Assembly (NCBI GenBank): GCA_913057985.1
Contig: CAJXPL010000010.1
Location: forward strand, 1 to 64,000
DNA: 64,000 nucleotides
Direction: 5' to 3'
Source of the DNA: an uncultured Synechococcus sp.
Lineage (GTDB): Bacteria; Cyanobacteriota; Cyanobacteriia; PCC-6307; Cyanobiaceae
Position 1 is the stretch's first letter. Each line of letters starts with the position of its first letter. Shown in pieces: positions 3,445 to 64,000 of the stretch. Both the position numbers and the translations under genes were made by a program. The notes beneath the pieces are model-generated. The model made no database searches, had not been told where the DNA came from, and saw only the letters and a program-made list of their open reading frames with translations.

Positions 3445-3463
3445 GCACCACCCTCCAATCAGA

Positions 3464-3925: not shown

Positions 3926-3987
3926 GACGCAGTTGGATAGCTATCTCATCTGTAGCACCTGGGACGCATGTCGCCCAGTGGTTGATA

Positions 3988-4689
3988 TCAACGCTGGCTT
4001 GTCGATTGGTGCAACCAGTCGAGAAGTGCCTGGAAGGCAGTAGGCGATCCCACAACCCTGCGGCCCAGGGCCACGGCGCCATGCCCAGCCTCCAGCCATA
4101 CGGGGAGATCACTCACCTCGAGGCCACCAGCGGCAATCACAAATGGCAATGGCCCGAGGGGTGCCTGCAAGCGGCTCCAGTAGCCCGGCCCCAGATTGGC
4201 AGCGGGAAACAGCTTGACGACACGACAACCGAACCGCATGGCCTGATGAACCTCGGTGGGACTGAAAACCCCAGGCACCAGCAAGACTCCAAGCCCTCTG
4301 GCCTGCTCCACGAGCTTCGGGCACCAGCACGGTGCCATCGCATAGCTGAGATCCAGCCGCGATAGATCGTTGATCGCCTTGGGGACCGTCACCGAAGCCG
4401 CCCCCAGATTCAGTCCAGGGCAATGGTCCTGCACCCGTTGCATGAACCCCATCCAGCCTGGCTGGTCAAGCCATGCGACCTCGAGATGTCGAAGTCCTGC
4501 GGCATGAAGCTGATGCACCTGCTCCAACAAACCAGAGCCCGAATCTGAAGCCACGAGGTCGTCGGGCTCTGGCCGAATCACCAACAAAAGAGGCTGGTGC
4601 TGCAGGGAAGCCACCAAGAGCTCCTGCCGCACCAGCCATCGGTTGGAGGACGAATCGAAATCAGACGTATTCGGCGACCCGGACGTCAC
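3988..4689 (-). CDS. eda: KDPG/KHG aldolase
   Basis: A class I aldolase that cleaves 2-keto-3-deoxy-6-phosphogluconate (Entner-Doudoroff) and/or 4-hydroxy-2-oxoglutarate. It has the family barrel pattern: a HLEVAW strand with the catalytic Glu, LGAASV, then the Schiff-base lysine in CRVVKLFPAANLG, and a PFVIAAGGLEV phosphate-binding strand. The frame opens with a GTG at 4689 that overlaps the upstream ftsH end by 29 bases. A second in-frame GTG at 4632, just after the ftsH stop, gives a protein of about 214 residues closer to the usual family length and may be the true start. It follows ftsH on the same strand, so co-transcription is likely. Confidence 0.85.
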   Translation of the reverse strand: MTSGSPNTSDFDSSSNRWLVRQELLVASLQHQPLLLVIRPEPDDLVASDSGSGLLEQVHQLHAAGLRHLEVAWLDQPGWMGFMQRVQDHCPGLNLGAASVTVPKAINDLSRLDLSYAMAPCWCPKLVEQARGLGVLLVPGVFSPTEVHQAMRFGCRVVKLFPAANLGPGYWSRLQAPLGPLPFVIAAGGLEVSDLPVWLEAGHGAVALGRRVVGSPTAFQALLDWLHQSTSQR

Positions 4690-6511: not shown

Positions 6512-6555
6512 AGGTCGCCTCGTAGATGAAGGAATGTTAAACGGGTTCTCAGTCT

Positions 6556-9091: not shown

Positions 9092-10401
9092 TCCCGAGCC
9101 TCAAGCAGAGCATCAAGCAATTGATGGGCCAGAGAGAGCTTTGCCGTCACAGGCAGCTCTCGTCTCCAGCCATCTCCAAGCAACCAGCCTCCGTTGGGTT
9201 GGGCCCCGAAACCCTGACCGTCACGGTCAACGGGATTCACCATCATCAGATCGCAGCCCTTCGCCAGCCGCTTGCTTTCAGCCCGCTCCAGCAAATGGGC
9301 ATCGCTGCCTGTGAGCGCGGAGAAACCGAGAACCAACTGTCCTGGACGGCGTTGGCGGGTCAGACTCGACAGGAGATCAGGCACTTCGGCCCAACCGGAG
9401 ACAAGAGCCTGCTGAAGATCCTGCTTGGCCAGTTTGCTTGGGGGAGCGGCATCGCGCCGCAGGTCAGCGACGGCAGCAGCCATGACGAGCACATCGGATC
9501 CGGGCTGAGCCAACTGCAGAGCTGAACCGAGTTCGGCGGCACTCTCCACCGCAGTGCACTCCAGGCCTTCAAGCCAGGCGCCGGGGAGATCCAAGGGGCC
9601 ATGCACCAGATGAACGGTGGCACCCCGGAAGCGTGCCGCCTGCGCCAGCAACACACCCATGCGACCGCTGCTGCGGTTGCTCAGGAAACGGGCCGGATCA
9701 ATCGACTCTTGCGTCGGTCCAGCCGAAACAAGAACAGACATCCCCGAGCAATCAAGGGTCACGTCAGGAGTGCCCGAACCGCGGCTGAACACAGACGCAG
9801 CCGCCAACTCAATCAACAGCGGATCGGCCATGCGCCCATCGCCGACGCGATCACAGGCCAACAGACCGGACGCCGGCACGAGGGGGGTCACCCCAGGGAA
9901 GGATTGAATCTGCTGCCAGTTGCGTTGCACCGCAGGGTGGCGCCACATGGCCGTGTTCATCGCCGGAGCCGCGATGACCGGAGCTTCCATGGCCAGCAGA
10001 ACGCTGGCGAGCAGTCCGTCGGCTGAACCCTGGCTCCAGCGGGCGAGGCTGCTGGCACTCAGGGGCGCAACGATGGCCAACTCCGCCCACTCCGCCAACT
10101 CGATGTGCAACGGCCTGGATGAGGCGGAGTCCCACTGGTCGGCCTCGAGGTAGCAGCGATGGCGACTGAGGCTGGCGAGCGCCACGGGACTCACCAAGGC
10201 AGCACCACTGGTGGTCACAAGACACCGCACCTCAGCGCCGGCCTTAATCAGCGCGCTGACGAGCAAGGGCGTCTTAACAGCAGCAATGCTGCCGCTGACG
10301 GCCACCAGCACACGCCGCCCGCACAGTGGCGACGACAGTGACGACGACAGTGACGACGACAGTGGCGACGACAGTGGCGACGCCTGCTCAGTCTTCATCA
10401 A
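9088..10401 (-). CDS. coaBC: Bifunctional phosphopantothenoylcysteine decarboxylase / phosphopantothenate-cysteine ligase
   Basis: A 437-residue fusion of CoaC and CoaB, which carry out two successive steps of coenzyme A synthesis. The CoaC half has the flavin-binding VAVSGSIAAVK start and the substrate-clamp motif PAMNTAMW near residue 145. The CoaB half begins around residue 220 (VLVSAGPTQESIDP), followed by FLSNRSSGRMG and a nucleotide-binding C-terminal domain. The first 27 residues are an odd Ser/Pro/Leu repeat generated by a 12-base tandem repeat in the DNA, not seen in normal CoaBC. A GTG at the beginning of the flavin strand could be the functional start if this tail is not translated. 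It overlaps the upstream DUF2555 gene by 14 bases. Confidence 0.93.
   Translation of the reverse strand: MMKTEQASPLSSPLSSSLSSSLSSPLCGRRVLVAVSGSIAAVKTPLLVSALIKAGAEVRCLVTTSGAALVSPVALASLSRHRCYLEADQWDSASSRPLHIELAEWAELAIVAPLSASSLARWSQGSADGLLASVLLAMEAPVIAAPAMNTAMWRHPAVQRNWQQIQSFPGVTPLVPASGLLACDRVGDGRMADPLLIELAAASVFSRGSGTPDVTLDCSGMSVLVSAGPTQESIDPARFLSNRSSGRMGVLLAQAARFRGATVHLVHGPLDLPGAWLEGLECTAVESAAELGSALQLAQPGSDVLVMAAAVADLRRDAAPPSKLAKQDLQQALVSGWAEVPDLLSSLTRQRRPGQLVLGFSALTGSDAHLLERAESKRLAKGCDLMMVNPVDRDGQGFGAQPNGGWLLGDGWRRELPVTAKLSLAHQLLDALLEARD
10324..10383. repeat. 12-bp tandem repeat (5 units)
   Basis: Five consecutive copies of CAGTGRCGACGA; the last copy ends in C. They lie inside the 5' end of coaBC and encode a four-residue Ser/Leu/Pro repeat on the minus strand. 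Because the unit is a multiple of three, copy-number changes keep the reading frame. Confidence 0.95.
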
Positions 10402-10609
10402 AAGGCTCTTGGTCCACCAAATGGTGGTACGGAAGGATCAGTTCGGGCCGGTGAATGGCCAGCGCCCGAAGCAGGTGCCAATCCGAAAGGCTGTCGAAAG
10501 GAGAGGGGTAATCGTCCTCTTCAAGCCGGCGGGCGAGTTCGGCCGTCGAGGCCTCGTCAAAAGCTTCGAGCCGTTCCTGCGTAAGCATCGAGCCGTCCTC
10601 AGACGCCAT
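10388..10609 (-). CDS. DUF2555 family protein
   Basis: A 73-residue protein matching the cyanobacteria-specific DUF2555 family. It shows an N-terminal helix (LTQERLEAFDEASTAELARR), then LEEDDYPSPFDSLSDWHLL and a RPELILPYHHLVDQEPFDED tail, a pattern I associate with this family. There is no signal peptide or transmembrane segment. Its function is unknown. The 3' end overlaps coaBC by 14 bases, so the two are probably co-transcribed. Its start lies 45 bases from the divergent tRNA-Ala gene. Confidence 0.8.
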   Translation of the reverse strand: MASEDGSMLTQERLEAFDEASTAELARRLEEDDYPSPFDSLSDWHLLRALAIHRPELILPYHHLVDQEPFDED

Positions 10610-10654
10610 TCATGGCAGTTTGACGCAAGCCGTGCCGGCTAGCGTTGGCTGACC

Positions 10655-10727
10655 GGGGAATTAGCTCAGTTGGTAGAGCGCTGCGATCGCACCGCAGAGG
10701 TCAGGGGTTCGAATCCCCTATTCTCCA
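10655..10727 (+). tRNA. tRNA-Ala (CGC)
   Basis: A 73-base cloverleaf. The acceptor strands GGGGAAT and ATTCTCC contain the G3:U70 wobble pair that marks alanine tRNAs. The D-arm is AGCTCAGTTGGTAGAGC, and the anticodon stem CTGCG/CGCAG holds the loop ATCGCAC with anticodon CGC. The T-arm is AGGGGTTCGAATCCCCT. The discriminator base is A and CCA is not encoded. The anticodon arm contains an exact GCGATCGC octamer (the HIP1 sequence of cyanobacteria). Confidence 0.97.
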
Positions 10728-10915
10728 CTGCGCTTTTGCAGCGTCGTCTGCCACTCATAGGCCTGTTTGCCCTTGTGGTGTTCAGCACCGTGGCACGACC
10801 TTCAGCCCTGCTCACCTTCACACTCATGGCTGCAGCCGGTGCGATAAGTCGCGCCCCATCACGCCGCACCTGACCCCCCATGAGGTAAAAGGGGTGTTGA
10901 ACTCCCCCGTAGCCG

Positions 10916-44011: not shown

Positions 44012-47000
44012 TCAAATCAAGCCAATGTCTGTCGCGTTGAGGTCTGGAGCCCCCTTGAGAACGGCAAACAGGCCTGAATCCTTGGGATCCCCCAGGCCTG
44101 GCTCGCGTCCGTTCCGATCGAAATAGAGTTCCCCGAGGGGTTGGAAATAGATGATTGAACTCGATTGTTCCAACTGTCGATTAAAGCTTCGCAGGCTGTT
44201 GACGACCTTGAAGCGTTTCCGTTTGAAGCCAGGGAAGACTTCGGCGTTGAGTTGAATCGTGTCTCCCTCTTGAGCGGAAAAACCAATGATCTGATCGGCT
44301 TTCTTGGCGCCGAATTGCTTCTCACGCGAGAAGATGAATTCATCGGTGGTGTTGCGTTTGCCGCGCAAACGTCCTTTGCCGGCGGCGTCGTAGACGAGTC
44401 GTGTTAGCTCAACCTCTTGGCCTCGGGTTGTGTTTTTCCCACCATTCTTGGCTTGGCTTGTTTCTGGCTGGCCCAGCTTCCACAATTCACGTCCATATCG
44501 GTCGGTTTTGGCTGAGAAATAAATGGCACCATCAACTTCCGTGATCGCTCGCGGGGAGGAATCCTTCGGGCCTGGGTTGATGTCACTGAGCAAGAAGGTT
44601 CCTGCTTCTGTGCCGTCACTCACCCACAGCTCTTCTCCGGATTGACCATCATCAGCACTGAAGTAGGTTTTGGCGCCCACGCTGGTGAAGCCCTGGGGAT
44701 TGGAGCTGCCTTCCCCGGGATGAATGTCTTTCAGGAGTGTGTTGCCGTTCACCCGTCCATCGGAGATCCAGAGCTCACGGCCAAGGCTGTTGTTGTCGGT
44801 CTCTGCAATGGGCGAAAGATTGCTGTCACCCGCTGATGTGGTTGTGCTGCGTCTGGCTGCAGTGGAGGGGATGCCGTCTGGGATCCGAATGGGAAGGGAA
44901 GTAGAAAGTGATTGGTCGGAGAGTGGTTGATAATATCGATTCCAATCTTCGGCGAGTGAAGCGTCATTGTTATCGACAACGCTAGAGGTTGCTAGTCTAT
45001 TTGCCGAGTATCTTGCAAGATTAAGCCACTCAGGATCATCGTATTCTCTGTAGTCATCTATTCTCCTGTTGTAAGTTTCGATGGATTCAAGTGCTTCTTC
45101 TTCAATTCCATCGGCAGCAATCATGAAGCCACCGGGATCCGATCCGGAATTGGATCCTGCTCCCGTGGAGGGTGACGACGTCGCTTCTTCTTGGGTTGGA
45201 TCCAGGGTTGTTTCAGCGCTGAAGAACAATTGATCCCGTGATGCATAGAGATCGCTGGGTTCCGTTGCAGTCGCTTCACCAGAGCTCCCAATCATTTCAG
45301 TGACGTTTAAGCCGCTGCCATCCAGTTTGAGAATCTGACGCCCGTTGAAGTATGTGTTTGCTGTGAAATAAAGATTGCCATCGAGCAGGCTTAAGTCTGC
45401 TGGGTTGGAATCCAGGCCTCCTGGATTGATATCCAGCAGCAAATTGGTACCATTTTTTGTACCATCACTGCGCCATAGTTCCCGACCGTAGACATTGCCT
45501 TCAGCAGCAAAGACAATCTGTCCATTCACGGGGGTCAATTCACTTGGATTGGACCCCACGCGTGAACCTGTGCGGATGTCTCGAACCAGGTGGTGTTTTC
45601 CTGATTTGATGTTGTAAGACCAGAGCTCGCGTCCATGAATGCCGTCATCGGCACTTAGGTAAAGTGTGTTTCCTTGCGTGAGCAAATCCGATGGTGATGA
45701 TCCCTCCTCCCCGCGATGTATATCTGCGGCGAGCTTGGTTCCCTTCTTGCCCCCATTGGAGATCCAGAGTTCAGATCCTTTACGCCCATCATCAGCAGCA
45801 AAGAACAGTGTCTTTTTATGACTTATGAATGATGATGGTGAGGAGCTTCCGCTGCCGTTGTTGATGTCTTTGAACAAGTTTGTGGATTTTGCCGTTCCAC
45901 GGCTGACCCAAGGTTCGAACCCTGTTCTCCCATTGGTGGCGCTGAAAAATAACTCCCCGCGATGATTGTGTAGTTCAGATGGATCTGAGCTTTGTGACTT
46001 CTGTCTGATGTTTTTAACCAGACTGCTTTTTCTTGTGTTGGATTGATTCGTATCGCAGCTGCCGGGTTTGCCTGGATCGCATGCTTCAGGGTCTGTCTCT
46101 GTCTCGGAAGAACTTGGTTGGTATGCATCCACCGTCCACAGTTCTCGGCCAGAGCTGCCGTCATTTGCTGTAAAGAAGAGGGTGTTATTTGCATTGATCA
46201 GATTGCGGGGGTCACTGCTTGGTACTCCGCTGTAAATGTCTGCATAGCGTGTTGCTTTGCTGCCTTTTTTGCTGAGATTTTGGCTCCACAGCTCGATCCC
46301 GCGCTCGCCTCCGTTGGCAGAAAAATAAAGGATCTTTTTGCTTCCACCCTTCTTCGTATTTTCGCGAATGAGTTGGAATTGTTGCGGATTTGAAGAGCGA
46401 ATGCCAGGATTGATGTCTTGGATCTGTTGTGGTTTGTTTTTGGAGTTGATGAAACAAGGCTCGCGGCCCTCCTTGCTGGAACTCGCTGAGTAAAAGAGTT
46501 TGCCGTCGATTTCAGTGAGGTGTCGCGGATCTTTGCCACTATTTTTTACCTTTTTTGCCTTATTCTTTTTATTGACGACCCAAAGTTGCCTGCCACTGCC
46601 GTCGTCGGCTGTGAAATAAAGTCGACCGCCGGCAACCGTCAGTTCTTTGGGACTGGAGCTGTTATCTGGATGAATGTCTTTGACAAGCTTTTGACCAATA
46701 CCTGTGTTTTTGATGCTCCATAATTCGAATCCGCTGACGCCATTGTTGGCTGTAAAGTAAAGTTTGTTCTTGAATTTTGTTAAATGATTCGGGAATGAGC
46801 TGCCTGTGGCTGTGTAGTATTCATTGAAAATTGATGGAGGTTGGAACGATCCACTTGTTGGATTATAAATATTATAAGTTTCGTTGTTAATTGGGATCGC
46901 ATATGTTCCATTCTCTGTTCCATCGCTGAACCAGAGTTCGATGCCGCCAAGTTGCAACCCGTCCGCAAAGCTACTTGTGCTTGCTTTGACGGTTTGGGTC

Positions 47001-47731
47001 GAGTAAGCCGTGAAGAAGAAGTTTCCCCCTCCGGCGCTTGTAAAGTTTCCAGGGAAAGAATCTGTGGAAAATTCAGGGGTGCTGGCGTTGAACTCAGCTG
47101 TGTTAATTGTTAGTGTTAGCTCCCCTGTTTCATCGTCTGGTTCGAGTTTCTGCTCTGTGATGTACCTGTCGGGGAATAAATTTTTGAACAGCTTGGTTCC
47201 AACGTCATCTCCCTCCCAGCGCCATAATTCATAGCCATTGCCTTGTCCTCCGGATCCACTCTCTCCGGATGCGCCCCCTTGCGAGCCGCTTGCGCTGAAA
47301 AATAACGTGTCGTTGACGGTAAATAAGTTGTAAGCGGAAAAATTATCTGAACCTGGAAATAATGCGTCGACTCGCCGGGTTCCAGCCTCGGTTCCATCGC
47401 TGCTCCATAGCTCAAAATTTTGTTCTGTCTGGGCGATGAAGTAAAGAAGCCCATTCGCCTCGACGAGGTTGCTGACCCCCTCAAAAGAGCGCAGCAGTCG
47501 TGTGCCTCCCTCGCTTCCGTCGCTTTTCCAGAGGCCAATGGCTTTGGTCGTATCAGAATTTTGATCGTCAATAGTTGTATCCTCTTCTTCGTTATCAGTT
47601 TCTACGTTGCTGTTATCGCTGGCGATTGTTCCTGTCTCTGCGGCAAAGTAAAGAATGCCCTCAATGTCAATTAGCTCGTTAGGTGAAGAGCTGCCATTGA
47701 GGTTGATATCTTTGACGAGGCGTCCTGTCAT
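44012..47731 (-). CDS. Large ELWxxDGT repeat protein, probably secreted
   Basis: A protein of about 1,239 residues built of 14 to 16 repeats, each with a variant of ELWxxDGTxxGT followed by KLxxDIxPG-like and LYFxAxD segments. This is the ELWxxDGT repeat pattern, probably a set of beta-propeller blades. No N-terminal signal peptide is seen. The last 125 residues (from about FIFSREKQFGAKKADQIIGF to NATDIGLI) resemble the C-terminal domains of RTX-type proteins exported by type I secretion. The ATG at 47731 was chosen; a TTG 12 bases upstream also opens the frame. The central part is A/T-richer than its neighbours, suggesting acquired or fast-evolving DNA. It is likely a surface or extracellular protein. 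Confidence 0.88.
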   Translation of the reverse strand: MTGRLVKDINLNGSSSPNELIDIEGILYFAAETGTIASDNSNVETDNEEEDTTIDDQNSDTTKAIGLWKSDGSEGGTRLLRSFEGVSNLVEANGLLYFIAQTEQNFELWSSDGTEAGTRRVDALFPGSDNFSAYNLFTVNDTLFFSASGSQGGASGESGSGGQGNGYELWRWEGDDVGTKLFKNLFPDRYITEQKLEPDDETGELTLTINTAEFNASTPEFSTDSFPGNFTSAGGGNFFFTAYSTQTVKASTSSFADGLQLGGIELWFSDGTENGTYAIPINNETYNIYNPTSGSFQPPSIFNEYYTATGSSFPNHLTKFKNKLYFTANNGVSGFELWSIKNTGIGQKLVKDIHPDNSSSPKELTVAGGRLYFTADDGSGRQLWVVNKKNKAKKVKNSGKDPRHLTEIDGKLFYSASSSKEGREPCFINSKNKPQQIQDINPGIRSSNPQQFQLIRENTKKGGSKKILYFSANGGERGIELWSQNLSKKGSKATRYADIYSGVPSSDPRNLINANNTLFFTANDGSSGRELWTVDAYQPSSSETETDPEACDPGKPGSCDTNQSNTRKSSLVKNIRQKSQSSDPSELHNHRGELFFSATNGRTGFEPWVSRGTAKSTNLFKDINNGSGSSSPSSFISHKKTLFFAADDGRKGSELWISNGGKKGTKLAADIHRGEEGSSPSDLLTQGNTLYLSADDGIHGRELWSYNIKSGKHHLVRDIRTGSRVGSNPSELTPVNGQIVFAAEGNVYGRELWRSDGTKNGTNLLLDINPGGLDSNPADLSLLDGNLYFTANTYFNGRQILKLDGSGLNVTEMIGSSGEATATEPSDLYASRDQLFFSAETTLDPTQEEATSSPSTGAGSNSGSDPGGFMIAADGIEEEALESIETYNRRIDDYREYDDPEWLNLARYSANRLATSSVVDNNDASLAEDWNRYYQPLSDQSLSTSLPIRIPDGIPSTAARRSTTTSAGDSNLSPIAETDNNSLGRELWISDGRVNGNTLLKDIHPGEGSSNPQGFTSVGAKTYFSADDGQSGEELWVSDGTEAGTFLLSDINPGPKDSSPRAITEVDGAIYFSAKTDRYGRELWKLGQPETSQAKNGGKNTTRGQEVELTRLVYDAAGKGRLRGKRNTTDEFIFSREKQFGAKKADQIIGFSAQEGDTIQLNAEVFPGFKRKRFKVVNSLRSFNRQLEQSSSIIYFQPLGELYFDRNGREPGLGDPKDSGLFAVLKGAPDLNATDIGLI

Positions 47732-47897
47732 GGCCAACAACAATCCATAATCACTTTAGTGTTTTGTGGCGTGAATGCCATTTTCATTGCTGATTCTCAG
47801 CTGTGTCTCACTCGGTTTTCATCGGTTGATCGTTACTTCCATTTTTGCTGAGCTTTGATAGCTTTTGGTTACTGGTCTGACTCCAGTGACGCCACTG

Positions 47898-48830
47898 ATG
47901 TTGCCTGAGTTACCGCAGTGGCAAAGCTTCCGTCTTGCTTGGTCACGTCTGATTCATCCGCGCCCTGTGCTGGTGGTCGTCTCCGACGACCGTTTGCAGT
48001 TTTGCTGGGGCTCCGGTCAACATTGGAGGTTTCGTTCCGCTCTCTTGCCTGATGGCGCCTGCCGTGATGGTGTGCCTTTGCAACGGGAAGCGCTTGGTGA
48101 CTTCATCGCCGATCTGATCTTCGACTGCGATCTCCCCGGGGCAGAACTGGTGCTTTGCCTACCCCTGCGGGCTGCTGCGTGGTGCGTTGTCGACGGCTAC
48201 GGATCGGATCGCGGGCCAGGTTTGTTGCCCCCGTCCTTGCAGACTCTCAATCTGCCTTTTGATTTGGCGGAGAGCTACATCACCTCCTCGCCGGTGCAGG
48301 ACGCTTTGTCGGTGGTGGGTGTGCCGCGACAGTTAATCCAGGGCTGGACCGAGGTGGCGGAATTCGCTGATCTGCCGCTAAGGCGCGTCGATTGGTCGCT
48401 GACGGCAGCTCAAAGGGCCTTGCATCAGTTCACGCAGGCATGGCCTGGCGACCTGGCCTGGCTTGTGGTGGAGCAAAAGAGCATTCGTTTGCTGTTGATT
48501 CGTCAGCAGGTTCCTGAGGTAGATCATGCCCTCGTGGAAGAGAATCCTGTCAGCTGTCGCAGCGAGATTCGGACCTGTGTTGCCGCTTGGCAGGCCCGTT
48601 TGGCTTCGCCATCAGTCCTCGGATGGTGGTTGTCGGTGCCGACCGAACAGCTCGATGATTGGTTGCCCCTTGTTGATGCTGCCGCAGGGGAAAGCTGCTT
48701 GAACCAGCCCTTGCCCGATTGGTTTGAATCATCGGATCACATCGATGGTGCTGACCAAGACGAGCCTGCTGATGTGCTGTCACCCCTTCAGCACCTGGCG
48801 CTGTTGGCTTTGCAGGAGGAGGAGCGATGA
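47898..48830 (+). CDS. pilM: PilM-like type IV pilus assembly protein (divergent)
   Basis: A protein of about 310 residues, placed by operon position as the cytoplasmic actin-like PilM that anchors PilN. Its sequence is divergent: an N-terminal VLVVVSDDRLQFCWGSGQHW fits the first strand pair of the actin fold. The middle part (LAESYITSSPVQDALSVVGV, then LPLRRVDWSLTAAQRALHQF) is compatible with the PilM fold, but classic phosphate-loop motifs are weak. A TTG at 47865 could extend it by 11 codons. Its stop overlaps the pilN start by 4 bases. Confidence 0.65.
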   Translation: MLPELPQWQSFRLAWSRLIHPRPVLVVVSDDRLQFCWGSGQHWRFRSALLPDGACRDGVPLQREALGDFIADLIFDCDLPGAELVLCLPLRAAAWCVVDGYGSDRGPGLLPPSLQTLNLPFDLAESYITSSPVQDALSVVGVPRQLIQGWTEVAEFADLPLRRVDWSLTAAQRALHQFTQAWPGDLAWLVVEQKSIRLLLIRQQVPEVDHALVEENPVSCRSEIRTCVAAWQARLASPSVLGWWLSVPTEQLDDWLPLVDAAAGESCLNQPLPDWFESSDHIDGADQDEPADVLSPLQHLALLALQEEER

Positions 48831-49507
48831 CGGCACGTCGGGATTGGCCCAAGCCGGATTTATTGCAGCAACGCCGGGTTGAGCTCGGCCTCCCGCCTGA
48901 GCCTGTTGTTATCGAACCACTCCCCCGACTGTTGCTGAAAGGTGCAGTACTGGGGGTTGTTTTGCTCTTGGCTCCCTTGGCTTTGTTGTTTGCCTTGGAG
49001 AATCAGCAGCGCCGTCTTGAGGCAGAGGTTGTCGAACTTGCTCCATTGGAGGGGCGTGTTGGGGATGCTCAGACTCGGCTGAAGACCATGGCGAAAGAGC
49101 GCAAGGCTCTGCATCAACAAACCAAGCGCATCGCTGTTCAACTGGTGGCTTTGCGCTCCGGATCAGCGCTGTTGGAGCAGATGCGACAGGTCACCCCTCA
49201 GGGTGTCCGCCTGCTCTCGCTTGACGTCCTTCCTTCTCAGCTCCTGATCAAAGGTGAAGCGGAAGGGGATGACGCTTTTGAGCGGATCAATGCTTTGGCG
49301 CTCAACCTCGAATCCCTTGATGATGTCCTCCTCGATGGAACATCTGTTCAGAAGGCCACGTCGAACGACGACGGACTGATTGAATTCAGCCTCGAAGCAG
49401 CACTGGATCCGTCGGTTCAGACCACTCCAGAACGTCTTCGTGAACTGGGAGCGAATGGTTTGGCGCGTCGTTATGAGTTTCTTCAAGAGAAGGGAATTGC
49501 CCTGTGA
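48827..49507 (+). CDS. pilN: PilN-like type IV pilus inner-membrane protein
   Basis: A 226-residue single-pass protein. A short cytoplasmic N-terminus (LLQQRRVELGLPPEPVVIEP) carries the PilM-binding type motif. A transmembrane helix (LKGAVLGVVLLLAPLALLFA, about 37-56) follows, then a periplasmic coiled coil and a small ferredoxin-like domain (TPQGVRLLSLDVLPSQLLIK). This is the PilN layout. It overlaps both neighbours by 4 bases. Confidence 0.78.
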   Translation: MTARRDWPKPDLLQQRRVELGLPPEPVVIEPLPRLLLKGAVLGVVLLLAPLALLFALENQQRRLEAEVVELAPLEGRVGDAQTRLKTMAKERKALHQQTKRIAVQLVALRSGSALLEQMRQVTPQGVRLLSLDVLPSQLLIKGEAEGDDAFERINALALNLESLDDVLLDGTSVQKATSNDDGLIEFSLEAALDPSVQTTPERLRELGANGLARRYEFLQEKGIAL

Positions 49508-50226
49508 CCAATCTCATTCCCTCCAAGCGTCGCCAATGGATCATCCGTGGTCGGGTGTTGGTGGGTCTGCCCATTGTCTTTGGTCTCCTTTTCAGCATGC
49601 CCTTGCTTCTTGTGTTCTTGCCGCCTGTTTGGCAGGACACGCATGAGCTGGAGCGACGCCGCGATTCCTTGCTTCAGTTGCAGCGCAATCTGCCGGCTTT
49701 GGTGAAGCAGCTTGAGAAGGCGAGCGTTGCCCTTGAACAGGCTGAACAGGAGCAGGCGCTGTTAATTGGTTTGTTGGCCGGGCGTGACAAGGTGCAGACC
49801 TTTCTGGCGCTTCTGAATCAACAAGCCTTGATGTCTGGCGTGACGATTCAGCGCTATGCACCCATCAATGTGTCGACGTCATCCTCAGAATCCCAACAAG
49901 CATCGTCGACATCGCGATCAGGAGATGACAAGCCTGATTCGGCAGACCCTCTCTTGGCCCTGGGTTATCAGAAGTCATCGGTTGCCTTAGAGGTTCGCGG
50001 CTCCTACGCCGGTCTGCAGGAGTTTCTTCAAAAGATGGAGTCGCTGGAACTCTTGGTGGAAAGCAGTGACCTTGAGATCAAGGCAGCTGCGACGAGCAAC
50101 GACGATCAGGCTGCATCAGCTCCTGTTGCATTGAGAACTGAGTTGACCCTTCAACTGAGCTTCTATGACCCACAGAAGGAGATCGATGTCGATTCAGGCA
50201 ATTCCCAGGAAACGCCGCCCAGTTAA
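49504..50226 (+). CDS. pilO: PilO-like type IV pilus inner-membrane protein
   Basis: A 240-residue single-pass protein. The transmembrane helix lies at about 20-40 (LVGLPIVFGLLFSMPLLLVF), followed by a coiled coil (DTHELERRRDSLLQLQRNLP). A periplasmic domain contains KVQTFLALLNQQALMSGVTI and VALEVRGSYAGLQEFLQKME, typical of PilO. A Ser-rich linker (residues about 120-145) is variable. It follows pilN with a 4-base overlap and precedes pilQ by 64 bases. Confidence 0.82.
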   Translation: MTNLIPSKRRQWIIRGRVLVGLPIVFGLLFSMPLLLVFLPPVWQDTHELERRRDSLLQLQRNLPALVKQLEKASVALEQAEQEQALLIGLLAGRDKVQTFLALLNQQALMSGVTIQRYAPINVSTSSSESQQASSTSRSGDDKPDSADPLLALGYQKSSVALEVRGSYAGLQEFLQKMESLELLVESSDLEIKAAATSNDDQAASAPVALRTELTLQLSFYDPQKEIDVDSGNSQETPPS

Positions 50227-50290
50227 GTCTGGTGATCGTCGGTTCTGATCGATACCATCGGCCTGATGTCTTCTGAGAGCGACAACGGAA

Positions 50291-52660
50291 GTGGGGAGCT
50301 CATTGTTTCGACGTTCGCTTTCCCTTGCCCTGCTGATCGGTTTCAGTTGTTCGACTGCAGAGATGGCTGCCGTGCTGGCGCCTGCACCCGCCGTGGCTGG
50401 AACGACGGTCGCCTTGAAGCTGCGTCGTTTCGGGGATCGCGTCGATCTTGTCGTTTCGGGTCTTGGCAGTAATCCGCGCTTGATCAGCCAGCGCCGTTCT
50501 TCATCGCGCTGGTCTGGCCGTTTGCGTGGCACCTCGTCGTCTGCATTGGTCGTTCCTCAGGATGTCGCGATGCCATCCGTTGGCTTGGCAGAGGTCAGGC
50601 TCAAGGCTGGAGCGGATTCGGACTTCGAACTGTCAGTCAGAGCCATGGAGGGAATGGCTTTGCCTGAGCCCATGATCAATGCGGATGGTTCCAATTTGAT
50701 CGTGTCATTTCGTCAGTTGCCGATTCGTACAACAGCGCTGCAGAGCGGGCGCCTGGATCTGAGCCGGCCGGGACGGGTTCAGCAACCTGTAGTTGTTCCT
50801 CCGATGCGAGCCCGTGCTTCAGCACCCCCCTTGGGGGATATCGCTGTCGGGTCCATGCTGCTCAGCAACCGCAGTTACGTGCTGGCCCAGGGTCCTTCAG
50901 TCTCCCTGACCTTGAACAATGCGCCAGCGAAGGATGCCTTGATGTCATTAGCTCGTTTGGGTGGGTATGGCTTCGTCTATGTGGGCGAATCCGATCAGGA
51001 TGCCGACCAGGCGAATCCTGTGGGCGTGACGATGGCGTTCCGGGACGAGCGATTCGACCGGGCCTTGAACAGTGTGCTGTTGGCGTCGGGTCTTCAGGCC
51101 AGGTTGGATGGTCAAACCCTGATGGTGGGCACCTCTGTTTCATCGAAGACATTTGGCCCGCAGATGTCCAAGGTGTTTCGACTGAATCAAGTGAAAGTTG
51201 ACAAGGCTGCAGATTATTTGGCCAGTCTTGGCGCATCGATGAATGTGATCAATACGATCACCACGACAACCGGTGAACCCTCATCCGTCGGGACAAGTCA
51301 GCTGAGTAATCAGGCCAGTCGGTCCACGCAGAAAACGACCAAAGTTGAAACCTATGGCGCTTCTGTTGGCCCCTTGATTGGTTTGACGGGGACCACAGAT
51401 ACGCGTCTTGGGACAGTCACTCTGGTTGGAGATCCTCAGCTAATCGCCTCGGCTGAGAATTATCTTAAGCAGCTTGATTTGCGCCGTCGCCAAGTGGCAG
51501 TGAAGGTACAGATTTTGAACGTGAACCTCAATAATGATGAGCTTCTTGATTCCAGTTTCTCTGCCCGTATGGGGGACACTTTTATTGTCAGCGACAGCGG
51601 CACGGGGCATCTCAACTTTGGCCAGGCCAAGCCGGGTGGCACGGCCGGCTCAGGGCTTTATGGCCAGGGTTTTTCAGGTGTTCCTGGCACGTACCCAAAC
51701 CGAGGGCAGGTTCCACAGCAGCGCGTCATTGACCCGGTGGTTGCATCTCAGGCGGTGGTGAATCCAGTGGTCCAGGAGCAGGCGGTTTTTCCACCGCAAA
51801 CTCCAGGAGGCGATCCGGTGCTGGTGCCGAAGCTGGACTCGATGGGGCGTCCGATTTATGTGCCCAGCTCGGACCCGGCTGCGCCACAGACTTTGAAGCC
51901 TGTTTATGACGCCAATGGCCAGCCTATTTATGTGCCTTCGAAAGATCCAGCTGCGGATCAGATCCTGAAGCCTGTTTACGACAAGAAAGGCCGCCCTGTT
52001 TATGTGTCAGATTCGAATCAGTACCGGCAGCCAGACAATTCTTTCTATGCCTACCTTGAAGCCCAGGTTGTAGCGCGAAATGCAAAAATACTCGCTCAGC
52101 CGACATTGTTGGTACAGGAAGGGCAGAAGGCGATTGTCGAAACTGGTCAGGATTACGTTGTGAATGTTTATCGGGATGAAAATGGTGACACGGGTACAAC
52201 TTCATACACCTATGAAAAGGAAAATGCTGGGCTTACGTTCGAGGTGAATGTTGACAAGATTGATGACAATGGGTTTATCACCATGAACTTGTATCCCTCG
52301 ATTTCTATTCCTATTCCTGCGGCTCAATCTTCTTTATCAGATACGGGTGGTGTGCAGATCTACAATTTTAATAGACGTGAATTGGAGTCTGGATCTATTC
52401 GTCTGAGGGATGGTCAGACATTGATCCTTACCGGTGTGGTGTCTGAATCGCAGCTCGAGGTAGTTCGCAAGTGGCCTTTTTTGGGTGATCTCCCTTTGCT
52501 TGGCAGCTTGTTCCGCAGGAGGCAATCAACAAGATCTAAGGACGAACTGGTGATTCTTGTGACCCCTCGCGTTCTCGATGATGACCAGGGAGGTGTGTTC
52601 GGTTACGGCTACCGACCGGCCACGCAGCAAGCCACCCAGTTGATGCAGAAGGGGTTTTAA
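50291..52660 (+). CDS. pilQ: Type IV pilus secretin PilQ
   Basis: A 789-residue outer-membrane secretin with a GTG start and an N-terminal signal sequence (FRRSLSLALLIGFSCSTAEM). An AMIN-like beta region is followed by N0/N1-type domains (KDALMSLARLGGYGFVYVGE, then KVDKAADYLASLGASMNVIN). The secretin pore ends with VVRKWPFLGDLPLLGSLF and ELVILVTPRVL, the family signature. Between them, around residues 455-580, is a Gly/Pro/Val-rich insertion that contains a tandem repeat. It would form the exit pore for pili. Confidence 0.92.
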   Translation: MGSSLFRRSLSLALLIGFSCSTAEMAAVLAPAPAVAGTTVALKLRRFGDRVDLVVSGLGSNPRLISQRRSSSRWSGRLRGTSSSALVVPQDVAMPSVGLAEVRLKAGADSDFELSVRAMEGMALPEPMINADGSNLIVSFRQLPIRTTALQSGRLDLSRPGRVQQPVVVPPMRARASAPPLGDIAVGSMLLSNRSYVLAQGPSVSLTLNNAPAKDALMSLARLGGYGFVYVGESDQDADQANPVGVTMAFRDERFDRALNSVLLASGLQARLDGQTLMVGTSVSSKTFGPQMSKVFRLNQVKVDKAADYLASLGASMNVINTITTTTGEPSSVGTSQLSNQASRSTQKTTKVETYGASVGPLIGLTGTTDTRLGTVTLVGDPQLIASAENYLKQLDLRRRQVAVKVQILNVNLNNDELLDSSFSARMGDTFIVSDSGTGHLNFGQAKPGGTAGSGLYGQGFSGVPGTYPNRGQVPQQRVIDPVVASQAVVNPVVQEQAVFPPQTPGGDPVLVPKLDSMGRPIYVPSSDPAAPQTLKPVYDANGQPIYVPSKDPAADQILKPVYDKKGRPVYVSDSNQYRQPDNSFYAYLEAQVVARNAKILAQPTLLVQEGQKAIVETGQDYVVNVYRDENGDTGTTSYTYEKENAGLTFEVNVDKIDDNGFITMNLYPSISIPIPAAQSSLSDTGGVQIYNFNRRELESGSIRLRDGQTLILTGVVSESQLEVVRKWPFLGDLPLLGSLFRRRQSTRSKDELVILVTPRVLDDDQGGVFGYGYRPATQQATQLMQKGF
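51818..52015 (+). repeat. Imperfect tandem repeat inside pilQ
   Basis: Three copies of a roughly 23-residue unit. The unit contains a Pro-Val-Tyr-Asp or Lys-Leu-Asp start, a Gly, then PIYVPS and DPAA. They lie in the secretin insertion, and the nucleotide copies have diverged only modestly. Confidence 0.8.
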
Positions 52661-59099: not shown

Positions 59100-59969
59100 G
59101 TGAGCACCCCAACGATCCAGTGGTACCCCGGCCACATCGCCAAGGCGGAGCAGCAGCTCAAGCGCCATCTCGACAAGGTGGATCTGGTGATTGAGGTGCG
59201 TGATGCCCGCATTCCGCTTGCTACAGGCCATCCCCACCTCAACCGCTGGTTGAAGGGCAAACAGCATCTGTTGGTGATCAACCGGCGCGACATGGTCACC
59301 GCGGCCGCCAAGGAGGCCTGGGAGGCCTGGTTCAAGGCCCAGGGCCAGCGCACAGTCTGGTGTGATGCCAAGGCTGGGACCGGCGTGAAGCAGGTGCAGC
59401 AGGCCGCGATCCGTGCCGGCGACCAGCTCAACGAACGCCGCCGCAACCGGGGCATGCGGCCCAGGCCTGTGCGGGCCCTCACCCTGGGCTTTCCCAACGT
59501 GGGTAAGTCGGCCCTGATCAATCTCCTGGTGCGGCAGAAGGTGGTGGCCAGTGCCCGCCGGGCCGGGGTGACGCGCACCCTGCGCTGGGTGCGTCTGGGG
59601 CAAGACCTCGACCTGCTTGATGCTCCTGGTGTGCTGCCGCCCCGGCTCGATGACCAGCAGGCGGCCCTGCGGTTGGCGCTTTGCGACGACATCGGCCAGG
59701 CCGCCTACGACGGCGAGTTGGTGGCCCAGGCCTTCCTGCGGATGTTGTCTGCCATGGAGCAGCGACCTGAATCCGGTGTGGTCTTGGCCCGCGTTGCGTC
59801 GCGCTACGGCATTTCCCTTAGCGGTGAGACTGCCGATCCAGCGTTGTGGATGCAGGCGGCAGCCGAAAAGCACACCTCCGCGAATACGGCGCGTATGGCC
59901 CAGCGCCTGATGGATGATTTCCGGAAGTCAGCATTAGGGCCAATCGCTTTGGAACTCGCTGAAGGCTGA
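59100..59969 (+). CDS. rbgA: Ribosome biogenesis GTPase YlqF/RbgA
   Basis: A 289-residue circularly permuted GTPase with a GTG start. The motif order is G4 (LVINRRDMV), G5 (CDAKAGTGV), G1 (LGFPNVGKSALINLL), the G2 Thr in GVTRTLRW, and G3 (LLDAPGVLP). That order identifies the YlqF family, which helps assemble the 50S subunit. The C-terminal helical RNA-binding domain is present. It is the last normal-composition gene before the A/T-richer P450 operon 113 bases downstream on the same strand. Confidence 0.94.
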   Translation: MSTPTIQWYPGHIAKAEQQLKRHLDKVDLVIEVRDARIPLATGHPHLNRWLKGKQHLLVINRRDMVTAAAKEAWEAWFKAQGQRTVWCDAKAGTGVKQVQQAAIRAGDQLNERRRNRGMRPRPVRALTLGFPNVGKSALINLLVRQKVVASARRAGVTRTLRWVRLGQDLDLLDAPGVLPPRLDDQQAALRLALCDDIGQAAYDGELVAQAFLRMLSAMEQRPESGVVLARVASRYGISLSGETADPALWMQAAAEKHTSANTARMAQRLMDDFRKSALGPIALELAEG

Positions 59970-60082: not shown

Positions 60083-61300
60083 TTGGATCTTCAGCAGCAA
60101 ATTGAATGCTTTAAGCAGGATCCCTGCCTCCCGGGTTGGGATGATCCTTATCCCGTGTATGCAGCGCTTAGGAAGGAGTCGGCGATTCATTGGTGTGAAG
60201 GGCCGAAATTATGGGTAATTGTTTCTTATAAAGAGGCTGTTGATCATATGAAAGATGCTCGATTTAGTCGTCAGAGCCATCTTGATGAGCTCATTGATCG
60301 CTTTGGAGATGGGCATATTTTTGAGCGTCAGAAACAGGATCTTCCCTATATGGATGGTCGTGAGCATTCCCGTTTAAGGCATCATATAGCGCAGGCTTAT
60401 CGAGGTATCGATTTCCAGTCTTTGGCCGATTACACGGTGAAATTTCTGGACAAGCGCTGTCAGGCAATAGCAGATCAGTCTGTTGTTGATCTTGTGCATG
60501 AGATTGCCAATCCTTTGCCGGTCATGGTGGTGAGTGAGTTGATGGGAGTTCCCGCAGAGCACCAGGAGATGGTTTGTCAGAAGGTTGGTGCCTTTGTGCG
60601 TGCTCGGGGATTGACTCAGACGCAGTCGACTGTGGATGAGGCAGACGATTCCATGGCGTTTTATAGCGAGTATTTTTTGCCGTTGATTCATGAAAAGCGA
60701 CGACATCTTTCTGATGATTTGCTTAGTCGCTTGATTTCAGATCACGAGGAGGATGTGCACCTCACTGATGAGCAATTGCTTCTTGTGATAAGCAGTAATT
60801 TTTATTCGGCAAGTATCTATACCCTTCGGCTCCTGGTTGGAACGCTGGCATGGTCCTTATCAATGCATCCAGAGGTGTATTCGCGCATTCGAGCTGACCG
60901 TGAATTGTTGGCGCCAGCACTTGAGGAGGTGTTGCGTTGGGAGCCGCCTGCTCAGGCGATTAATGCCAGCACTGCTTTGGAAAATCTGGAGGTTGATGGG
61001 AAGGTGGTTCATGCAGGTGAATCGGTCTCGGTATTGGTTGGTGCTGCAAATCGTGATCCTCGGATTTTTAAAAATCCAGACCAATTTTTGATCGACAGAA
61101 ACCCCAATCCACATCTAAGTTTTGCTCCCGGATTGCATCAGTGTTTGGGCTTGAATCTTGCAAGAATGGAAGGAAAGTGCGTCCTCAATGCGCTTTGCGA
61201 TCACTATGAGTCGCTGCGTGTTGTTGAGGCTCGACGTTTGATTGGGGATCGTTTTAGGGGTTTTGATCGACTCCTCCTGGAGACCTCATCTGTTGAATAA
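60083..61300 (+). CDS. Cytochrome P450
   Basis: A 405-residue soluble bacterial-type P450 with a TTG start; an in-frame stop at 60074 rules out any start upstream. The haem-ligand loop FAPGLHQCLG puts the proximal cysteine at 354, and the K-helix EVLR pair is Glu282/Arg285. In the I helix the usual acid-Thr pair (AGxE/DT) reads ASIYT (243-247). The threonine (Thr247) is kept, but the acid before it is Tyr246, so proton delivery may be unusual. No membrane anchor is present. It opens an A/T-richer operon: the next gene starts 2 bases later. No ferredoxin partner gene is visible here. The substrate is unknown. Confidence 0.92.
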   Translation: MDLQQQIECFKQDPCLPGWDDPYPVYAALRKESAIHWCEGPKLWVIVSYKEAVDHMKDARFSRQSHLDELIDRFGDGHIFERQKQDLPYMDGREHSRLRHHIAQAYRGIDFQSLADYTVKFLDKRCQAIADQSVVDLVHEIANPLPVMVVSELMGVPAEHQEMVCQKVGAFVRARGLTQTQSTVDEADDSMAFYSEYFLPLIHEKRRHLSDDLLSRLISDHEEDVHLTDEQLLLVISSNFYSASIYTLRLLVGTLAWSLSMHPEVYSRIRADRELLAPALEEVLRWEPPAQAINASTALENLEVDGKVVHAGESVSVLVGAANRDPRIFKNPDQFLIDRNPNPHLSFAPGLHQCLGLNLARMEGKCVLNALCDHYESLRVVEARRLIGDRFRGFDRLLLETSSVE

Positions 61301-61302
61301 TT

Positions 61303-62211
61303 ATGTACCCGTCTGCTCATTCTTTTGACTACATCGAATGTCTGTTTATTTCTTCTTCTCAGGCTGTCAGAGACTCACCTCTTGAAGGTAATTCCATTCA
61401 TAGTGTTGAATCAGCTTTAAGCCATGTAGAAGATCGTCTTTCACAGGGCTTGAGTCGTTGGTTGGTCGTTGCTGTTAATGATCATCCTGGTTTGGATCAG
61501 GTTGATGCCTCAGGATTCTGTGTTGCTCGTTTTCTTCACAAGGCGAGTTCTCTATGGTCAAGAAATCAGGCAATGTTCATTGCTGACGTTGGCTTATCTC
61601 CCTATCTCAGCTCTGGTCAAAGTGTCATTTTGGAGAACGGCATTATTGATTGTGAGGCCTCGTACCAAGCTGTGATTCGTCTTGCCCTGCGCTTTGCAGA
61701 GGCAGGGGCTCATTACGTTGCGCCTTGTCTTTCTTTGCCAGAGCAGACGATCAGATTGAGAGATGCTTTGAGATTGCATCAACTGTCGTGTGGATTGATG
61801 CCCTACAGCACTAAATTTTCTTCTTCCCTTTACGGTCCTTACCGTTCAACAGTAGGTTCTTCTCTTGGTTTCTCACGTAAAAGTTATCAGTTTGATTTCT
61901 CTGATTCGAGGCAAGCTCTCCATCAAATGTCGGAGGATTTTTTGCAAGGCGCTCGAATGTCCATTGTCAAGCCAGCCTTGCCTTATCTCGATGTTTTGCA
62001 GGACGCTTGCCGACAGTTCTCGCACCCTATCGCTGCATATCACGTGAGTGGAGAATATGCGATGGCAATCCATGCAGCTCGGGAAGGATTGCTGGATCCA
62101 GTGGATTATTTCGCAGAAATCCATGCAGCAATGGCGCGATGTGGGGCTCGCTATGTGATTGGTTATGCGGCTGATTACTTTCTTCAGTCTTCAGCCCAGA
62201 AGACCTCTTAA
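61303..62211 (+). CDS. Divergent porphobilinogen synthase (HemB/ALAD) paralogue
   Basis: A 302-residue TIM-barrel protein with clear HemB landmarks. The A-site lysine is Lys171 in MPYSTKFSSSLYGPYR and the P-site lysine is Lys223 in SIVKPALPYLD, exactly 52 residues apart as in E. coli HemB (K195/K247). VSGEYAM, which lines the second substrate site, is intact. The zinc-cysteine loop (CxCxxxxxxxC) is replaced by IADVGLSPYLSSGQS, and the DMMDGR segment reads CLSLPEQ. The protein is shorter than housekeeping HemB because its N-terminal arm is reduced. It is translationally linked to a P450 and an FAD monooxygenase, not to haem genes. I infer a Schiff-base condensation of an amino-ketone or similar substrate; the product is unknown. 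Confidence 0.85.
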   Translation: MYPSAHSFDYIECLFISSSQAVRDSPLEGNSIHSVESALSHVEDRLSQGLSRWLVVAVNDHPGLDQVDASGFCVARFLHKASSLWSRNQAMFIADVGLSPYLSSGQSVILENGIIDCEASYQAVIRLALRFAEAGAHYVAPCLSLPEQTIRLRDALRLHQLSCGLMPYSTKFSSSLYGPYRSTVGSSLGFSRKSYQFDFSDSRQALHQMSEDFLQGARMSIVKPALPYLDVLQDACRQFSHPIAAYHVSGEYAMAIHAAREGLLDPVDYFAEIHAAMARCGARYVIGYAADYFLQSSAQKTS

Positions 62212-63374
62212 TGCGAATCCTTGTTGTTGGGGCTGGGCCTGTTGGGCTCATGTTTTGTTCCAGGCTTTCCCAGGGTGGTCACGACTGTGTGTTGATTGAG
62301 CAAAATCGCTTTGATCAGACATTTTCCAGGGCCTCAACTCTTCAGCCAGCCACGCTGGAGCTGCTGTCTGAATTGAATTGTTTATCGGATCTGGAGCCCT
62401 ATGGTGAGATCGTGTCGGAGGTGATGGCCTGGAATCTGGACGATGGAACGATTCGGGAGTCAAGTTATCGCATCCTCTCGGCTTGTACGAATTTTCCGTA
62501 TCGCTTCCATTTGCATCAGTCGATCCTGCGCGAGCGCCTGATTGCTGAACTTCGAAGGCGATCACGTTGCCATCTGGTCGAACAATCTAAGGCCGTCGCT
62601 GTTCATTTCGATCGTCACGACCAGGCAGTTTCGCTAGAGGTGAAACTGCACGGTGTGAGTTGTTTGACTCAGACTTTTTGCGGTGATTATTTGATTTTAT
62701 GTGATGGAGCTCATAGTGCGTTACGCCAACAGTTGGGTCTTCGTTTTGAGGGCTATGACCTGCCTATGCCTGTTGTTCGTCTCTCCACTCCAGTGCTTCC
62801 TGCTTGCCTTGAAGAGCAACTTGCTGGGGTCTCCTATCTTCAGGCAGCGAAGCGCTCTTTGAGCTGTCTCAAGATGTCTGATGGTTGGCGTTTTGTGCTC
62901 CGTCCATCGCTATCAGAAGTGTATGAGGCCACAGCAGATACCTTCTGGGCCCGCCAGTGTTTGGCAGATTCTTTCGCGGATTTGGTTCCCCCGCGTTGGT
63001 GGTTTTCACATCCAGCAAAGCGTGATTCCTACAATGTTGCACAGAGATATGTGTCCAACCGTAGGGTCAAGCGTGTTTTTGTTTTGGGTGATGCGGCTCA
63101 TGTCACGAATACTCGGGGGGGAATAAATATGAATTTTGGCCTTTTGGAGGCTTATTCATTGGCATCATGTTTTTTGAATGATGCCGGTCAAGATGCACTG
63201 GATCGTTGGAATGTCTTTTGGTTGGGGTTGACAGAGTCTGTATTGATGGAGCGAACGACGCAGTTGCATTCTGGTCGCACACCTCATTTTTTGAATCCCA
63301 AGAATGATGAGCTTGACTCATTGATGCGCTCGTGTCTTCTTGACCTGCTTCCCTACACTCATTCGTCGTTCTGA
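62211..63374 (+). CDS. FAD-dependent aromatic-type monooxygenase
   Basis: A 387-residue class A flavoprotein monooxygenase (UbiH/PHBH-like). The FAD dinucleotide motif is ILVVGAGPVGLMFCSRLSQG (residues 3-22). The NAD(P)H-binding DG motif is LILCDGAHSALRQQLGLRF near residue 165, and the GD motif is FVLGDAAHVTNTRGGINMNF near residue 295. The reading MNFGLLEAYSLA replaces the more usual NLGIQDAxNL. The start overlaps the HemB-like stop by one base (TAATG) and the stop overlaps the next start (TGATG). It would hydroxylate an electron-rich ring, perhaps the product of the preceding enzymes. The substrate is unknown. Confidence 0.9.
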   Translation: MRILVVGAGPVGLMFCSRLSQGGHDCVLIEQNRFDQTFSRASTLQPATLELLSELNCLSDLEPYGEIVSEVMAWNLDDGTIRESSYRILSACTNFPYRFHLHQSILRERLIAELRRRSRCHLVEQSKAVAVHFDRHDQAVSLEVKLHGVSCLTQTFCGDYLILCDGAHSALRQQLGLRFEGYDLPMPVVRLSTPVLPACLEEQLAGVSYLQAAKRSLSCLKMSDGWRFVLRPSLSEVYEATADTFWARQCLADSFADLVPPRWWFSHPAKRDSYNVAQRYVSNRRVKRVFVLGDAAHVTNTRGGINMNFGLLEAYSLASCFLNDAGQDALDRWNVFWLGLTESVLMERTTQLHSGRTPHFLNPKNDELDSLMRSCLLDLLPYTHSSF

Positions 63375-64000
63375 TGACTCTTCAGCCGTTGAATTCCGTT
63401 GGAATTGTTGTTCCGCCATCAAATCCAACCTTGGAGATTGAGATTAAGCGGCTGTTAGGTGATTGCCCTTATCTTTACACCTCGCGGCTGCCTATTTTTC
63501 CTCAATGTGATCTTCAAGAGCGTAATCAACGCTATCTCGACCAATATCTTGATGCTTGCCTCCGATTTGGTTCTTTGCCTCTTTCGGGCATTGTAGTTGG
63601 ACTTACCGGTTCTAATTATGCATTGGGCCCAGATGGAGATCGGCGATTTTGTGAGGATATCTCTGCCAAATTGAGTATTCCTTTTGTAACTACAAGCTTG
63701 GCAATCCTTGAGCTTCTTCGCACTCTCGGATTCGAGCGCCTCCACCTTGAACTTCCTTATCCGCAATGGTTGATTGATCAGGCCAGTCTGTATTGGAAGC
63801 AGGCAGGGATAGAAGTTGTCGCTGCCAACTCAATTCTTGAATCTCTGAATGTTCAAGATGCTTATGCAATTGATGATCTTGATTTGGAGGACTATCTCAA
63901 GTCGCTGAAGCCCCATGATCGAGCACCAATCTTGCTTTCTGGTACTGGGATGCGCACTGTGGGTGCCCTCGAGGACTTGGTCGATCGTTATCCTGTTCCG
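63374..64000 (+). CDS. Asp/Glu racemase/maleate isomerase-superfamily protein (partial, 3' end beyond window)
   Basis: The first 209 codons of a protein cut by the window edge. It begins with the superfamily strand VGIVVPPSNPTLE. The two cysteines that catalyse isomerisation or decarboxylation in maleate isomerase and arylmalonate decarboxylase-like enzymes are both replaced: at the first site the strand reads VGLTGSNY (Leu77), and at the second LSGTGMRT (Gly190). The flanking Thr, Ser and Arg of those motifs are kept. So the fold is probable but the usual chemistry is not. It starts on the last base of the monooxygenase stop, making it part of the operon, which continues beyond the window. 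Confidence 0.78.
   Translation, partial: MTLQPLNSVGIVVPPSNPTLEIEIKRLLGDCPYLYTSRLPIFPQCDLQERNQRYLDQYLDACLRFGSLPLSGIVVGLTGSNYALGPDGDRRFCEDISAKLSIPFVTTSLAILELLRTLGFERLHLELPYPQWLIDQASLYWKQAGIEVVAANSILESLNVQDAYAIDDLDLEDYLKSLKPHDRAPILLSGTGMRTVGALEDLVDRYPVP

Follow-up and report, generated by a model that had tools for sequence, protein, structure and literature searches.

A six-gene picocyanobacterial cassette with a divergent HemB-fold protein as a candidate pathway to a specialised metabolite

A conserved cluster of six genes in an uncultured Synechococcus sp. and its relatives may form a cassette for the biosynthesis and export of a specialised metabolite, in which a HemB-fold enzyme would condense two 4-oxo-acid substrates into a product other than porphobilinogen (PBG). 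We put the probability of this reading at about one half. The cluster occupies positions 60083-66751 of the contig, between rbgA and rluD, in a genome of 2.43 Mb that is 99.6% complete. The contig ends at 79,530 bp; its first 64,000 nucleotides, referred to as the window, are the whole stretch of DNA covered by the initial annotation.

The first four genes are located on the forward strand and encode a cytochrome P450 (60083..61300, 405 aa, TTG start), a HemB-like protein designated CLS-HemB after its clade (61303..62211, 302 aa), a class A FAD monooxygenase (FMO; 62211..63374, 387 aa), and a maleate-isomerase/AMDase-fold protein (63374..64165, 263 aa in full, with the window edge at 64000). 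The corresponding Pfam matches were all over the curated cut-offs: P450 (60 bits, with the heme Cys loop and ExxR), ALAD (PF00490, 199 bits), FAD_binding_3 (PF01494, 113 bits, with GxGxxG and GD motifs), and Amdase (PF17645, 44 bits for the full-length protein). These genes are followed by a PrpD-family gene on the reverse strand (64162-65574), with N- and C-terminal MmgE/PrpD Pfam domains, and by a forward gene for a putative exporter of the MFS family (65558-66751, assigned by Pfam), after which rluD begins. All six proteins were clearly assigned. The left flank of the insertion site, outside the cluster, is an rbgA/ylqF-type GTPase gene (59100..59969, forward strand). The ORF coordinates agree with the initial annotation of four head-to-tail genes separated by 2, -1, and -1 bases, and the operon is indeed cut by the window edge, since the AMDase-fold gene runs to 64165 and the PrpD and MFS genes also belong to the set. 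Reading the DNA to the right, as had been recommended, completed the gene set before rluD. Among the additional genes anticipated there, the transporter was found just past the window as the MFS gene, whereas no ligase, PKS, or NRPS gene follows. The AMDase-fold and PrpD genes are convergent and overlap at their 3' ends, and the PrpD and MFS genes are divergent and overlap at their 5' ends, making the unit very compact. The six genes include no core NRPS or PKS synthase gene and no resistance or regulator gene, and housekeeping genes flank both sides. With no NRPS, PKS, or similar core gene, the cassette would probably escape detection methods that rely on such genes. A role in anti-phage defence was rejected, as a PADLOC search returned a single weak and irrelevant match.

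Other features of the contig were recorded. A 1243-aa protein encoded on the reverse strand (44012-47743) has repeats around ELW..DGT..GT and looks like a secreted or surface protein; its gene lies in a stretch of 46-54% GC within a region of 60-65% GC. Four consecutive forward genes (47865-52660) resemble, by eye, those encoding PilM, PilN, PilO, and PilQ of type IV pili. Past the cluster, a 365-aa protein without Pfam match is encoded on the reverse strand (76541-77638 of contig C10, 16541-17638 of locus L004) in an island of 41-43% GC adjoining an arginyl-tRNA-synthetase-like gene.

Co-conservation, which the initial annotation had suggested checking by a neighbourhood search, was explored. 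The HemB-like protein was detected above the E 1e-40 threshold in 11 of 399 genomes of the order, the ten relatives being 57-76% identical, and further carriers, both marine and freshwater, emerged when 84,980 species genomes were scanned. Removal of duplicates left 13 distinct picocyanobacterial carrier genomes. Comparison of these loci revealed the six genes in identical order and orientation in nine of them (L004, L015, L016, L026, L027, L029, L030, L032, and L033); the remaining carriers were cut by contig ends (L025, L028, and L037) or rearranged (L031). The P450, MFS, and PrpD genes of GC-rich relatives, in which antisense ORFs are longer, were located by tblastn. The PrpD-family and MFS genes that follow the first four are thus conserved with the set. 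Gene order was unchanged among copies 38-82% identical to those of the window, and the FMO, with identity to the window copy as low as 38%, excludes recent copying. Pairwise dN/dS ratios (Nei-Gojobori) of 0.06-0.34 for all six genes revealed purifying selection, the ratios being rough for the deeper pairs, which are near synonymous saturation. These results indicate that the six genes almost certainly constitute one functional unit. As initially supposed, this co-conserved gene set appears undescribed, a search of open-licence PMC papers having returned no account of it.

The distribution of the genes is patchy, covering a scattering of picocyanobacteria. No carriers beyond the query genome were found among 386 cyanobacteria sampled from the phylum, 299 genomes of the order of genome G728, or 380 genomes of the phylum of genome G727, and none were found in two further families (8 and 53 genomes sampled). 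IMG/VR scans provided nothing in favor of carriage of the HemB clade by phages. Carriage by plasmids was rejected since tblastn matches were all below 60% identity and the best ones were annotated as ordinary hemB.

The initial annotation had described the genes as A/T-richer than the neighbouring chromosome, and GC content does drop from ca. 64% to 45-52% exactly across the window genes (49.6% for the whole cluster versus 63% in the flanks). Low GC is not intrinsic to the cluster because the freshwater copies match their own flanks (cluster/flank values of 0.69/0.684 and 0.614/0.618); it is marked only in the copies related to that of the window (L004, L015, L016, and L026). The marine copies and that of Synechococcus sp. 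CS-1328 occupy the same rbgA-rluD interval as the window cluster, and neither gene was present within the DNA read around the other freshwater copies. Of 25 congeners in which the site could be read, 22 have it empty, with rbgA next to rluD and 15-54 bases between the aligned ends. Low GC and patchy distribution could be taken to mean that the six are unrelated accessory genes of a genomic island whose proximity is accidental. This explanation is extremely improbable, as order and orientation persist among strongly diverged copies and in more than one chromosomal location, the genes overlap translationally, and they are under purifying selection; co-conservation by itself refutes a chance grouping.

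Decay of the cluster was also observed. Congener G066 (L136, G066:C1:702000-716000, 2623-5560) harbors a decayed remnant of a once complete cluster, with intact P450 and MFS genes; of the HemB-like and PrpD genes only ca. 43 and 71 codons, respectively, are left, and the FMO and AMDase-fold genes are gone. The cluster is breaking up in other strains. Cyanobium sp. Morenito 9A2 (L031) contains an inverted P450 fragment (2-136) and a transposase-like gene (5634-6773) at the place expected for the MFS gene, and the MFS gene of JR-MC-G (L030, 14469-15613) is split across two frames.

To our knowledge, HemB is known for a single reaction, in tetrapyrrole synthesis. The genome encodes a housekeeping HemB separately (contig C28), which is 31% identical to CLS-HemB. 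Phylogenetic analysis of 83 HemB proteins (PMSF) separated the 17 CLS-type sequences from all others by a branch with 100/100 support and a length of 2.29; the bootstrap had yet to settle completely and the CLS stem is a meeting point of long branches, so that the depth of the split is uncertain and the separation clear. The second HemB and the 100/100 split uphold the proposal of the initial annotation that the protein is a paralogue distinct from housekeeping HemB, and on sequence comparison CLS-HemB is a rare, separate clade. Its signature combines ADxGLSPYxxxGHS/GQS and APCLSL, whereas other HemBs contain DPY/CEY...GHD/GHC and mostly SDMMDGR or SGMMDGQ. No HemB-like enzymes in biosynthetic clusters were found in the literature searched (open-licence PMC papers).

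Inspection of the active site revealed both retention and loss of key residues. The Schiff-base lysines, K171 and K223, are invariant (11-row clade alignment, all clade copies scanned). Also invariant in the clade alignment are R181, K193, Q196, S249, and Y288, equivalent to R215, K229, Q233, S286, and Y324 of the Pseudomonas aeruginosa PBG synthase (PBGS), which are the carboxylate-binding positions in established PBGS structures. The active-site metal ligands, three Asp or three Cys in PBGS, are replaced, S99, S107, and L143 occupying the positions of P. aeruginosa D131, D139, and D176. These sites were mapped via P. aeruginosa PBGS numbering together with the assignment of D224, D232, and D269 as active-site metal ligands of the Arabidopsis enzyme (PMC6262466); the latter residues align to S99, S107, and L143, and the ligands are kept in 0 of the 17 clade members. 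The S175 equivalent is replaced by Cys, and the allosteric Asp by a non-ligand residue in the clade (P146 in the window copy). The AlphaFold model (pLDDT 89.7) matched PBGS structures at Z 37.9, with an rmsd of 1.9 Å over 296 residues. The N-terminal arm is absent, as the first residue of the model pairs with residue 27 of the P. aeruginosa enzyme, in which the multimerisation arm comprises the residues below 32.

CLS-HemB might alternatively be a metal-free PBG synthase producing a private pool of PBG, which the remainder of the cluster would tailor by oxygenation, decarboxylation, and export. The conserved lysines, the two intact carboxylate clamps, and the close fold match (Z 37.9) are in agreement with this possibility. 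Furthermore, the PBGS of Rhodobacter capsulatus works metal-independently (PMC535902), so loss of the metal ligands does not by itself prove that CLS-HemB catalyzes another reaction, and is compatible with PBG synthesis. However, the losses extend beyond the metal site to the equivalents of D176 (Leu), S175 (Cys), and the allosteric Asp (Pro) and to the arm. In addition, CLS-HemB scores 192 bits with the NCBIfam PBGS model NF006762, under its cut-off of 297 bits, HemC was undetected in two carriers, and cyanobacteria already make PBG. We therefore consider a private PBG pool unlikely.

The clade extends outside cyanobacteria. Two actinobacterial metagenome-assembled genomes (MAGs) carry it. 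In L035, the HemB-like, FMO (29% identical), and AMDase-fold (40% identical) genes are adjacent, with no P450 gene nearby, and these three genes therefore look like the core of the system; in L038, the clade copy is at a contig end. Directly after the three genes of L035, on the opposite strand (ca. 9990-10800), lies a gene for another protein resembling racemases, which by eye seems to be of the hydantoin/Asp-Glu racemase type. The clade protein is also encoded, behind a methyltransferase-like gene, in L034 and L036, genomes of only 0.8 and 1.1 Mb that may belong to Patescibacteria to judge from their size and gene content. Searches for HemC, HemA, and another HemB detected none in L034 and L036, with the caveat of MAG incompleteness, and identical searches succeeded in the other three genomes. 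Failure to detect these proteins speaks against a role of the clade in tetrapyrrole synthesis in L034 and L036. The methyltransferase-like protein, so named by eye and paired with CLS-HemB in both genomes (L034 4078-5868; L036 8046-9822), is 53% identical between them and obtained no Pfam (above cut-off), NCBIfam, or PDB assignment.

The occurrence of the clade in genomes without detected HemC or HemA also argues against the idea that CLS-HemB is a resistant target copy protecting the producer of a HemB inhibitor made by the other five genes. Resistant target copies are a known pattern in clusters, and a complex of HemB with an ALA-like analogue of the natural product alaremycin exists (PDB 2woq). 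This role would nonetheless require CLS-HemB to be a working PBGS, and its divergence (31% identity to the HemB of the same genome, stem length of 2.29) is far past that of a resistant isozyme. Self-protection is accordingly a very doubtful function.

The P450 heme loop FAPGLHQCLG and the ExxR motif (EEVLR) are present in all 13 copies with one-residue variants, and SSNFYSAS replaces the canonical I-helix acid-alcohol motif (A/G)Gx(D/E)T(T/S) in each of the 13. On account of this replacement, the P450 likely performs an unusual oxidation. Its best solved relative is BioI (3ejb). The FMO harbors VVGAGPVG (GxGxxG) and LGDAAH (GD). In the AMDase-fold protein, the second catalytic-Cys position, which corresponds to AMDase Cys188 by an assignment resting partly on family knowledge, is occupied by Gly-Thr (LLSGTGM or LLTGTGL) in each of the nine copies aligned. 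At the first catalytic-Cys position, freshwater copies have Cys, the window clade has Leu, and L035 has a residue other than Cys. Since every copy has lost the second Cys, a Cys-Cys racemase or isomerase mechanism appears unlikely. The assignment in the initial annotation (Asp/Glu racemase/maleate isomerase superfamily) can be refined, maleate isomerase and arylmalonate decarboxylase being closest by both sequence and fold, and the Cys-Cys mechanism is probably not retained. The PrpD-family protein scored 79.7 and 93.2 bits with its Pfam models (cut-offs of 32.1), and the MFS protein weakly resembles efflux families.

The nearest solved structures of the FMO and AMDase-fold proteins are HspB (6-hydroxy-3-succinoylpyridine 3-monooxygenase) and maleate isomerase, respectively. 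Both are enzymes of nicotine degradation in Pseudomonas putida S16. This relatedness to N-heterocycle catabolism weighs against a biosynthetic function and raises the alternative of a catabolic or detoxification cassette, importing and degrading or modifying a pyrrole, pyridine, or tetrapyrrole fragment, with CLS-HemB catalyzing a retro-condensation or related aldolase-type step. The PrpD family is frequent in catabolism, and the MFS protein is compatible with either direction of transport. Against this, identity to the nicotine enzymes is only ca. 20-25% in very large families, the cluster contains no amidase, dioxygenase, or regulator gene, and a C-N condensing enzyme in photoautotrophs is more simply explained by synthesis. 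Degradation is thus an improbable function, even more so than a private PBG pool, and the cassette is probably biosynthetic, although it lacks the resistance, regulator, and NRPS/PKS genes of a classical biosynthetic cluster.

For this biosynthetic cassette, we infer the following reactions, step order, and product from the conserved residues and family assignments. CLS-HemB would bind two 4-oxo acids as Schiff bases on K171 and K223. Its substrates are rather likely to be of the ALA type, most plausibly ALA itself, possibly with an ALA-like partner. Metal-free condensation would yield a pyrrole, a pyridine, a pyrazine, or an open-chain isomer, and we are similarly inclined to think that this product is not PBG. 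The FMO would oxidise the condensation product, the AMDase-fold and PrpD-family proteins would reshape carboxylates (by decarboxylation, isomerisation, dehydration, or epimerisation), the unusual P450 would add a further oxidation, and the MFS protein would export the final compound. The likeness to HspB and maleate isomerase hints at a pyridine- or pyrrole-type ring, as leads only, at 20-25% identity in large families. The pyrrole- or pyridine-like compound and the ring-opening step suggested in the initial annotation are likewise putative.

The CLS-HemB clade has kept the covalent machinery of HemB, has lost the metal site, is accompanied by two oxygenases and a putative exporter, and is found even where no heme pathway was detected. 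At slightly less than even odds, we propose that it is a new enzyme family, a metal-free double-Schiff-base synthase that assembles ALA-type 4-oxo acids into a nitrogen scaffold other than PBG. It would then found a class of natural-product pathways that has so far gone unrecognised, spread over picocyanobacteria, actinobacteria, and heme-less bacteria with small genomes. If so, secondary metabolism has taken over the HemB fold to form scaffolds. Some carriers are complete genomes and named isolates, making the proposal directly testable.

Comparison with known systems places the cassette at a distance from each of them. CLS-HemB shares with PBGS (HemB/ALAD, PF00490) the TIM-barrel fold, both Schiff-base lysines, and the residues binding both ALA carboxylates, but differs by the absence of the three metal ligands, of the S175 and D176 equivalents, and of the N-terminal arm, by its separate clade, and by its location outside a heme operon. 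The R. capsulatus PBGS is also a HemB-family protein devoid of metal-binding determinants; however, it is a genuine and highly active PBGS, hexameric and close to the P. aeruginosa enzyme (PMC535902), whereas CLS-HemB is ca. 29% identical to P. aeruginosa PBGS and clusters with oxygenases. The AMDase-fold protein resembles maleate cis-trans isomerase (4fq5, 2xed) and arylmalonate decarboxylase (3ixl, 2vlb) in its fold (Z 25.7, to 4fq5, and 24.1) and Pfam Amdase domain, but has Gly-Thr at the position of AMDase Cys188 and maleate isomerase C194/C200 in the nine aligned copies. HspB (7da9) is the solved FAD monooxygenase closest to the FMO, with a weak match (64.6 bits) in a very large family. 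The PrpD-family protein has cis-aconitate decarboxylase as its nearest PDB match and exceeds the cut-off for both MmgE-PrpD Pfam domains, but scores 26 bits with the PrpD equivalog model, far under its cut-off of 458. Finally, classical NRPS/PKS clusters are organized around a core synthase gene, in contrast to the six-gene cassette, which would build its scaffold with a HemB-fold enzyme.
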